From positions 1 through 37,331 of the forward strand of contig CAIWBA010000121.1 of NCBI GenBank assembly GCA_903910765.1: 37,331 bases of DNA, written 5' to 3'. The first letter of the stretch is position 1. Each line of letters opens with the position of its first letter. The notes under the pieces were generated by a model. The model saw only the letters and a program-made list of their open reading frames with translations. It was not told the origin of the DNA and made no database searches. The DNA comes from an uncultured Bacteroidota bacterium (lineage in GTDB: Bacteria; Bacteroidota; Bacteroidia; Chitinophagales; Chitinophagaceae). Position numbers and translations under genes: made by a program. Positions 19,443 to 23,730 of this stretch are shown here, piece after piece.

Positions 19443-22534
<3,092 letters not shown>

Positions 22535-22647
22535 TTTTTTATTTTTTACGTTAACATTATGCTTGTCGAAAACCTCAAAGTCTTTTTTAGGACTTTAAAA
22601 TTATCAGTATTTTCTTTTTCAAGTGTTCTGTTTTACAAAGACTTAGC

Positions 22648-22682
22648 AAAAGAAAAAAGCCTTCCATTTTATTGGAAGGCTT
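22648..22682 (-). terminator. Intrinsic terminator in the asd leader
   Basis: On the minus strand AAGCCTTCC (22682-22674) pairs with GGAAGGCTT (22665-22657) around an 8-base loop. A T-rich tract TTTTTTCTTTT (22658-22648) overlaps and follows the stem. It points toward asd, whose ATG is about 115 bases further on, so it would end transcripts before asd unless the antiterminator forms. It could also simply end the pfkB-kinase transcript. Confidence 0.8.
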
Positions 22683-22722
22683 CTGAGTATATTTATTCGC
22701 ATACTAACAATCAGCACCTTCC
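22674..22722 (-). promoter_or_regulatory. Candidate antiterminator hairpin of the asd attenuator
   Basis: On the minus strand GGAAGGT (22722-22716) pairs with GCCTTCC (22680-22674, one G-U pair), CTG (22714-22712) with CAG (22685-22683), and AGTAT (22705-22701) with ATACT (22690-22686). That gives 15 pairs with a small internal loop and a 6-base bulge. The GCCTTCC arm is the same one that builds the terminator stem, so the two structures exclude each other. The 5' arm starts 2 bases after the leader ORF stop, where a terminating ribosome would cover it. Confidence 0.6.
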
Positions 22723-22724
22723 TA

Positions 22725-22769
22725 TTATAGGGGTTTCTTAATTTGTTTTGTATGTTTATTTTTCATCAT
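22725..22769 (-). CDS. Putative 14-codon leader peptide of asd
   Basis: The ORF encodes MMKNKHTKQIKKPL and ends TAA, with TAG as the next codon. Five residues are Lys, two Met, and one each Asn, Thr and Ile, so ten of fourteen belong to the aspartate family fed by Asd or its substrate pathway. It starts 7-8 bases after a -7 element, so the message may be nearly leaderless. The low GC content by itself favours Lys, Asn and Ile codons, so composition alone proves little. The position directly before the antiterminator arm is the stronger argument. Confidence 0.5.
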   Translation of the reverse strand: MMKNKHTKQIKKPL

Positions 22770-22776
22770 TGTTTAA

Positions 22777-22808
22777 CAAAATTAATTGGATGTATTGATT
22801 TTACCAAA
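22777..22808 (-). promoter_or_regulatory. Promoter for the asd leader
   Basis: On the minus strand TTTG (22808-22805) is followed after 20 bases by TAATTTTG (22784-22777), matching the Bacteroidota -33/-7 pattern. It begins 1 base beyond the pfkB-kinase stop and would start a transcript near 22770, right before the leader ORF. Confidence 0.55.
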
Positions 22809-22809
22809 T

Positions 22810-23730
22810 TTAAACCAATTCAATATCAAAATTAACCAACTGAACGAACGATTGTATGCGCTCTTTAATATCAGCCTCGTTGATTTCAGTTAATCTTTGT
22901 GTGCCAAATTTCTCCACACAGAAGCTAGCCAATGCGCTACCTACGATAATAGCAGACTTCATATTGTTAAATGAAAAATCTTTCGTTTTAGCCAAATGTG
23001 CTACAAAGCCACCAGCGAAAGTATCACCGGCGCCGGTTGGATCAAACACTTCCTCTAAAGGTAAAGCTGGAGCGAAAAATACTTCTTGACCATGGAACAA
23101 CAAAGCACCATGTTCTCCTTTTTTAATGATTAAGTATTTAGGACCCATGGCCATAATTTTTTTAGCCGCCTTAACCAAACTATATTCTCCACTTAATTGA
23201 CGCGCTTCACTATCATTGACCATTAAAACATCGACCAAGCTAATGGTATGTAATAAGTCGTCCATCATAATTTCCATCCAAAAATTCATAGTGTCCATTA
23301 CAATTAACTTTGGACGCTTTTTCATTTGTTTGATTACGCTACTTTGAACACCTGGCACTAAATTTCCCAACATTAATATTTCACAATCCTGATAACTATC
23401 TGGCACTACCGGTTCAAAATTTTCTAATACATTTAATTGTGTTTCGATGGTATCACGTGTGTTCATATCTAAATGATACTTCCCACTCCAAAAAAATGTT
23501 TTTTCATCTTTTTTAATTTGCACTCCTTCTAAAATCACCCCTCTATTTGCTAAGGCATCTAACTCGGATTGTGGGAAATCACCACCCACTACTGAAATTT
23601 GCTTAACCGTGGTAAAATTGGATGCGCACCAAGCAATATAAGTTGCTGCTCCGCCAATAATTTTATCACTTTTACCAAAGGGTGTTTCAATGGCATCAAA
23701 GGCCATGGATCCAACTACAACTAATGACAT
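22810..23730 (-). CDS. PfkB-family sugar/nucleoside kinase
   Basis: The 306-residue protein has the ribokinase fold. The N-terminal region has GGAATYIAWCASNF, in place of the family's GGxxxNxA signature. The C-terminal ATP-site signature DPTGAGDTFAGGF (230-242) supplies the catalytic base Asp236. PfkB kinases phosphorylate sugars or nucleosides such as ribose, fructose or adenosine. The substrate cannot be set from sequence, and no sugar-pathway gene is adjacent. The start faces the tetR gene across 201 bases. Confidence 0.9.
   Translation of the reverse strand: MSLVVVGSMAFDAIETPFGKSDKIIGGAATYIAWCASNFTTVKQISVVGGDFPQSELDALANRGVILEGVQIKKDEKTFFWSGKYHLDMNTRDTIETQLNVLENFEPVVPDSYQDCEILMLGNLVPGVQSSVIKQMKKRPKLIVMDTMNFWMEIMMDDLLHTISLVDVLMVNDSEARQLSGEYSLVKAAKKIMAMGPKYLIIKKGEHGALLFHGQEVFFAPALPLEEVFDPTGAGDTFAGGFVAHLAKTKDFSFNNMKSAIIVGSALASFCVEKFGTQRLTEINEADIKERIQSFVQLVNFDIELV

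Follow-up and report, generated by a model that had tools for sequence, protein, structure and literature searches.

A putative lysine-codon leader-peptide attenuator upstream of asd in a Bacteroidota family

The window, the whole stretch of DNA analysed here, comprises 37,331 nucleotides from an uncultured bacterium of the family Chitinophagaceae (Bacteroidota; contig CAIWBA010000121.1), and all the features described below lie on its minus strand. The asd gene (21536..22534), which the putative switch would control, encodes an aspartate-semialdehyde dehydrogenase (NCBIfam PRK14874, 437 bits with a cut-off of 223; TIGR01296, 425 bits with a cut-off of 324). Its upstream neighbour, outside the switch, is a PfkB-family kinase gene (22810..23730; Pfam PF00294, 121 bits with a cut-off of 26; all NCBIfam matches below cut-off). 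Between the two genes the sequence contains, in the direction of transcription, a promoter element TTTG at -33 (22805..22808), a -7 box TAATTTTG placed 20 nt after it (22777..22784), a predicted transcription start at ~22772 and a leader ORF of 14 codons, MMKNKHTKQIKKPL (22725..22769, with the ATG at 22769), which ends in TAA with TAG next. The putative regulatory codons are K-H-T-K-Q-I-K-K (22734..22757); the Lys codons conserved at four columns in relatives have their first bases at 22757, 22748, 22739 and 22736, and a fifth, less conserved one is at 22763. The 5' arm of a first helix (helix 1), CATACAAAACAA, lies within the ORF (22743..22754), a mini-hairpin of four pairs, CCTA-TAA-TAGG, encloses the stop codon (22721..22731), and the 3' arm of helix 1, TTGTTAGTATG (22700..22710), was located by folding in the loop of the antiterminator. 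The antiterminator is formed by GGAAGG (22717..22722) and CCTTCC (22674..22679), the latter being also the 5' arm of the intrinsic terminator, whose hairpin and T-tract (22646..22684, stem 22684-22655) precede asd.

On re-reading the sequence, every element named in the preliminary description of this DNA (promoter, 14-codon ORF, antiterminator, terminator and asd) was found at its place, including the antiterminator 5' arm 2 bases after the stop, at 22722-22717, and the terminator with the common CCTTCC arm and the T-tract. For the terminator stem 12 pairs were counted in the scan, as against 9 in that description, and helix 1, the stop-codon hairpin and the predicted nearly leaderless position of the ORF are new. 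With its 12 pairs the stem has the most pairs among the seven terminator-like sites in 9 kb (5.8 sites in shuffled sequence). The fold of the leader RNA gave z = -3.43, and none of 200 shuffles was as good.

The Asd protein was searched in the genome of the window, in 36 others of the genus and in 23 of the order, and 57 of these 60 genomes gave a match. Upstream sequence was read for the best 30 asd loci, all within the genus. The same leader layout was present in 25 of the 30 upstream regions, and 23 of these 25 leaders have 14 codons. In the five loci without a leader (L005, L016, L017, L019, L021) asd lies directly behind the kinase gene and is thus presumably co-transcribed with it. The 25 genus leaders served to build a covariance model (R1), the promoter lying outside the model. 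At E <= 0.001 it gave 99 matches in 93 of 396 genomes of the order, and 29 of the 60 relatives had matches. At E <= 1e-4 the element was called, by score, in 102 of 195 genomes of the family, representing 61 of 101 genera and overlapping the genomes searched before, and nothing was found at this threshold in 93 of the 195.

All 99 order matches were tested for a downstream asd by tblastn, and the remaining 13 were read individually. In 86 of the 99 the match is followed on the same strand by asd, at a distance of 22-233 nt. The gene downstream is dapA in five cases (L079, L093, L095, L105, L110), prephenate dehydratase in two (L127, L131) and, behind the Lys-rich leader MTRKLHKSKKHLPNR (L132, 1462-1574, minus), a class I aminotransferase in one, its best NCBIfam match being an aspartate aminotransferase model, below cut-off. 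Five matches are plain terminators (L114-L117, L119), including all four outside the family, and two weak genus matches (L134, L135) were also read as such. Both asd and dapA are lysine-pathway genes. Among the best 30 dapA loci, those closest to the query in the family, six carry the leader, i.e. the five already known and L225. At one locus (L126) a dapA-like gene follows asd, so that one leader may control both. The leader model was matched at E < 0.01 by 24 of 80 asd loci in named records, among them Sediminibacterium roseum, Limnovirga soli and Niastella yeongjuensis and records titled Flavihumibacter, Filimonas and Parafilimonas. No match at this threshold was obtained at the asd loci examined of Mucilaginibacter, Pedobacter, Sphingobacterium, Dyadobacter and Flavobacterium, and none in several records titled Chitinophagaceae, Sediminibacterium or Chitinophaga pinensis; a record titled Bacteroidetes (L137) has the closest Asd among the named records, yet no leader. 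From these record titles the family can be described as Chitinophagaceae-type. The switch layout before asd is more than chance, since it recurs across the genus and in numerous further genera of the family.

A comparable ORF was parsed in 103 of the 104 leaders of the leader set (L101 was unparsed), 5 of the 103 standing before dapA. Second copies of counted leaders (L032, L033, L035, L036) were dropped, the plain terminators L114-L117 and L119 and the hisG leaders L120, L121 and L133 were excluded as Lys leaders, and L122-L136 are outside the set of 103. In 94 of the 103 leaders a box TAnnTT(T/C/A)(G/A) begins 12-19 nt upstream of the start codon, compared with 43 of 2048 tests (2%) in the background further upstream, and TTTG stands 18-22 nt upstream of it in 81 of these 94. 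In Flavobacterium psychrophilum the sigma-A box TAnnTTTG is placed at -12 to -5 (PMC9723704). By the Flavobacterium rule the predicted 5' UTR is 0-7 nt long, and in 46 of the 94 box-containing leaders its length is 3 nt; the leader ORF of the window is predicted to be nearly leaderless, with a 5' UTR of ~3 nt, if transcription starts as in Flavobacterium promoters. Such an ORF would be unusual, since leaderless mRNAs made up only 5.5% in the count given in PMC9723704, which also describes translation start in the phylum as independent of Shine-Dalgarno sequences. This raises the question of how a nearly leaderless ORF gets translated fast enough to keep up with the polymerase. In 24 of 96 loci no more than 40 nt lie between the end of the terminator and the start of asd, which leaves little room there for another promoter.

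The motif of the 103 leaders is K-H-T-K-(R/Q)-(T/I)-K-K, with Lys at its four columns (K1 to K4) in 96, 97, 98 and 91 leaders, respectively (88-95%); the conserved short Lys-rich ORF for which a search among relatives had been advised is thus present. The concern that low GC favours Lys codons was not borne out: the leaders contain on average 4.50 Lys codons in frame, whereas the two other frames contain 1.27 and 1.74 and dinucleotide shuffles 2.47. Each of the 101 leaders compared exceeded its own shuffled Lys mean, 61 of them singly at p <= 0.05. The Lys codons are exchanged silently (AAA 62 and AAG 35 at K2, AAG 79 and AAA 19 at K3); of the four, K3 and K4 are not part of helix 1. By parsimony, the Asd tree of 97 loci required at least 17 silent versus 4 amino-acid changes at K2 and at least 14 versus 4 at K3; the same count for the column between R and K3 (Thr/Ile) was 16 silent versus 33 amino-acid changes, and no clear silent excess was seen on this tree at K1 (6 versus 6) and K4 (6 versus 9). 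The silent changes at the Lys codons point to selection on translation, and the pattern of silent and amino-acid changes supports the predicted translation of the leader ORF.

The preliminary description had named shortage of charged Lys, Met, Thr or Ile tRNA as the signal. Lys was borne out by the conserved columns. Thr and Ile are rejected, because their column varies freely, and so is Met, because the residue preceding the motif is not conserved. Judged from the codons, the signal of the putative attenuator is lysine, narrowed from the aspartate-family set. Some leaders have one Lys less, K2 being Met in L107 (KHTTMTKK) and Asn in L108 (KHTTNTKK). One further asd leader (L140, 1003-1120) reads MINFTNTTIKTIKGFPRGKA, which contains more Thr and Ile than Lys, and perhaps has a changed signal.

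Taken together, helix 1, the stop-codon hairpin and the terminator are 93.8% paired across the 25 genus leaders. The number of double-change cells in them was 42, as compared to 16.7 in shuffles (0 of 500 reached the observed value); slid controls gave 0-7. Less striking was the count of pairs having a double change (9 versus 6.2 in shuffles, reached by 25 of 500). Three pairs were counted in the stop-codon hairpin, and in two of these both sides have changed; its variants in the relatives are CTA/TAG, CTC/GAG and CGC/GCG. Covariation of the antiterminator was not significant in the same 25 leaders (93.8% paired, 2 double-change pairs, reached by 41 of 500 shuffles). Thus, of the compensatory changes to be sought in both hairpins according to the preliminary description, those of the terminator were found and those of helix 1 could be added, whereas the antiterminator varies too little to be tested in this way.

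RNAalifold predicted no pairs on the family-wide alignment A3, which we think is due to a misregister of the terminator arms by MAFFT, and therefore per-sequence duplex and partner-swap tests were used instead. Arm finding gave no ungapped arm in L030 and L096 and a wrong arm in L037; the latter was kept in the counts of 101 leaders, hand-corrected for the masked folding and omitted from the duplex test, which covers 100. The helix 1 duplex reached -10.3 kcal/mol with its own partner, -3.7 with shuffled partners and -8.1 with partners from other leaders, and its pairing with the inter-arm region was better than 95% of mononucleotide shuffles in 94 of the 100 leaders. When partners were swapped, the own partner of helix 1 outperformed the foreign mean in 78 of the 100 leaders, i.e. 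the pairing is fairly specific. In the case of GGAAGG/CCTTCC the own partner was better in 57 of 100; these arms are nearly identical in all leaders, so little covariation is to be seen outside the odd sequences. In three of these (L025, L091, L108) the antiterminator arm and both terminator arms have changed together.

In 96 of 101 leaders the antiterminator arm is separated by 11-17 nt from the final Lys codon of the motif. Relative to the first base of the stop, the arm starts at an offset of -15 to +6 in the 101 leaders: 2-6 nt downstream in 52 of them and 6-15 nt upstream in 49. The leading edge of a ribosome is located ~13 nt downstream of the A-site codon. In both forms, a ribosome with the last Lys codon in its A site would end just short of the arm, and a ribosome at the stop would cover it. 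When a ribosome footprint of assumed size was masked during folding, the antiterminator formed in 100 of 101 leaders with K1, K2 or K3 in the A site, in 98 of 101 with K4, and in 0 of 101 with the ribosome at the stop, a result which follows from the mask itself. Equilibrium folding without a ribosome preferred the antiterminator in 78 of the 101 leaders. Since the untranslated leader favours the antiterminator at equilibrium, termination by default would need kinetic folding.

The sequence-level features by which an attenuator is recognised were thus found at this locus: a terminator and a mutually exclusive antiterminator with a common arm, a 1:2 helix joining the coding arm to the antiterminator region, a short 5'-proximal ORF whose codons match the amino acid of the controlled gene, and a geometry in which a ribosome at the control codons leaves the arm free and one at the stop codon covers it. 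In our opinion the asd leader is very probably a ribosome-mediated transcription attenuator that reads the charging of tRNA-Lys, a reading based on the parts, their conservation, covariation and spacing, the selection on Lys codons and the gene linkage. The attenuation suggested earlier was therefore right in kind and is supported at the level of sequence, the leader ORF being conserved and the terminator and helix 1 covarying. As to its operation, we infer translation of the ORF, stalling, a response to starvation and a default state of the untranslated leader as follows. Transcription would begin ~3 nt before the leader ATG, with the ribosome trailing the polymerase. When Lys-tRNA is ample, the ribosome would get to the stop codon and cover GGAAGG, so that CCTTCC would pair with the second GGAAGG and the terminator would end transcription at ~22650. 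When Lys-tRNA is scarce, the ribosome would pause at a conserved Lys codon with its leading edge just before GGAAGG, which would stay free to form the antiterminator with CCTTCC, and asd would be transcribed. If the leader is untranslated, the arm in the ORF would pair with the antiterminator loop and the stop-codon hairpin would tie up the first G's of GGAAGG; these pairings should favour termination.

Leaders of similar construction were observed at other biosynthetic genes of the family. Weak R1 matches (L120, L121, L133) led to leaders before hisG in which a repeated arm and a terminator were read; their codons are for His (MLLNNHIHHFHPLSNR type) and their arms, differing from those of the asd leader, contain GCTTAC. 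When the upstream regions of the 30 closest hisG loci of the genus (L247-L276) were examined, 29 contained a His-rich leader ORF, defined as at least 3 His in 8-30 codons. A hisG gene was found in 38 of 41 genus genomes searched, and no hisG match in the window's own assembly, which may reflect a gap or a loss. Two leaders in another genus of the family (L127, 1396-1540, minus; L131, 558-702, minus, the leader being on the strand opposite to the R1 match) are rich in Phe and Tyr codons (MNKQTTFGFFGFYYFWYQE and MITQTTFGFFGFYYFWYQK), share the GGAAGG/CCTTCC arms with the asd leader and precede a prephenate dehydratase gene (Pfam PF00800, 188 bits; NCBIfam below cut-off). Both kinds resemble the asd leader in having a short ORF matched to the pathway, a repeated arm and an intrinsic terminator. 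Leader peptides in the family thus seem to follow a common general plan in which the codons match the pathway. In Flavobacterium, strong clues for leader-peptide attenuation of amino-acid operons have been described, with structured elements upstream of pheA and hisG (PMC9723704); the word lysine does not occur in the main text of that paper.

A leader acting through its peptide, in which a basic nascent peptide (KHTKRTKK) arrests the ribosome, or the peptide or a small RNA acts elsewhere in the cell, seems quite improbable to us. The stretch is indeed basic, the His and Thr columns are also conserved (85 and 88 of 103 leaders), and the terminated leader would be an RNA of ~120 nt. However, the His and Thr codons sit in helix 1, which explains but does not prove the cause of their conservation, and in L026 and L029 they change along with the partner arm (seen by eye in the genus alignment A1). 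The second Lys codon is shifted by one position in L067, L076 and L097 (KHTTKTKK, KHTTKIKK), which suits the counting of codons better than a fixed peptide. Moreover, the hisG leader is rich in His and that of prephenate dehydratase in Phe and Tyr.

It is very unlikely that the element is a metabolite-binding riboswitch or a T-box with an open frame in its aptamer by coincidence. Alternative helices are conserved together with a terminator before a biosynthetic gene, and helix 1 and the antiterminator could form a pseudoknot, as this explanation would have it; against it, the silent changes at the Lys codons show selection on translation, the element is only ~110 nt long and without a large conserved core, and the codons of the similarly built leaders are for His before his genes and for Phe/Tyr before phe genes. 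Rfam 15, the families of which include the T-box and the asd RNA, gave no match at gathering score in the window. A relaxed search gave 8 matches, all below gathering; in one of them the terminator hairpin was called ctRNA_p42d, and another was Phe_leader with 25 of 55 bits. The covariance model of the L-box (RF00168) matched nothing in the window and none of 98 family genomes, while 4 of 14 control genomes were positive in the same search. A riboswitch, a T-box or a known Rfam leader is therefore rejected.

The worry that the terminator, 126 nt past the kinase gene end in an AT-rich region, merely ends the kinase transcript, the ORF and the second hairpin being chance, can be dismissed as extremely unlikely: the genus loci and six from other genera (L045, L047, L096, L100, L113, L126) do have a kinase match upstream, but it is absent from 15 of the 17 other-genus loci with 1.5 kb of upstream sequence (L045-L061), where the element stays with asd, the element also stands before dapA, and the promoter, the ORF frame, the Lys codons and the spacing are all conserved ahead of the terminator in other genera.

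The attenuator proposed here for asd is similar to the trp, his and thr attenuators of Proteobacteria in its layout, no sequence similarity being claimed: a leader ORF contains codons for the product amino acid, a biosynthetic gene lies downstream, 1:2, antiterminator and terminator helices can be formed and the stop codon is at the antiterminator arm. It differs from them in its lysine codons, in a start codon ~3 nt from the predicted 5' end, in a helix 1 that pairs with the antiterminator loop, and in a stop codon which can come before or after the start of the arm while the last Lys codon keeps its distance. Leaderless short ORFs whose codons report amino-acid supply are described in mycobacteria (Canestrari et al. 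2020, cited in PMC9031893); these use cysteine codons, belong to another phylum and apparently have another downstream mechanism, and no conserved terminator hairpin was seen in the mycobacterial cys operons according to PMC1262725. The latter source lists lysine genes under control of the L-box at the RNA level, in which the L-box resembles the asd leader, but it is a riboswitch and not a leader peptide.

No lysine leader-peptide attenuator was found in the open-access literature searched. We consider it probable that the asd leaders represent a lysine-specific class of leader-peptide attenuators which does the work of the L-box across a large family of Bacteroidota, has nearly leaderless ORFs, keeps the last Lys codon one ribosome footprint from the arm whatever the position of the stop, has spread from asd to dapA and to an aspartate-aminotransferase-like gene, and is part of a wider set together with the his and phe leaders. 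If this is true, lysine would join the amino acids sensed by leader peptides, and Bacteroidota would gain a defined attenuator whose promoter, ORF and hairpins are sufficiently conserved for testing. It would also be an example of such a switch spreading along a pathway, and the covariance model together with the codon table would make its annotation in many genomes direct.
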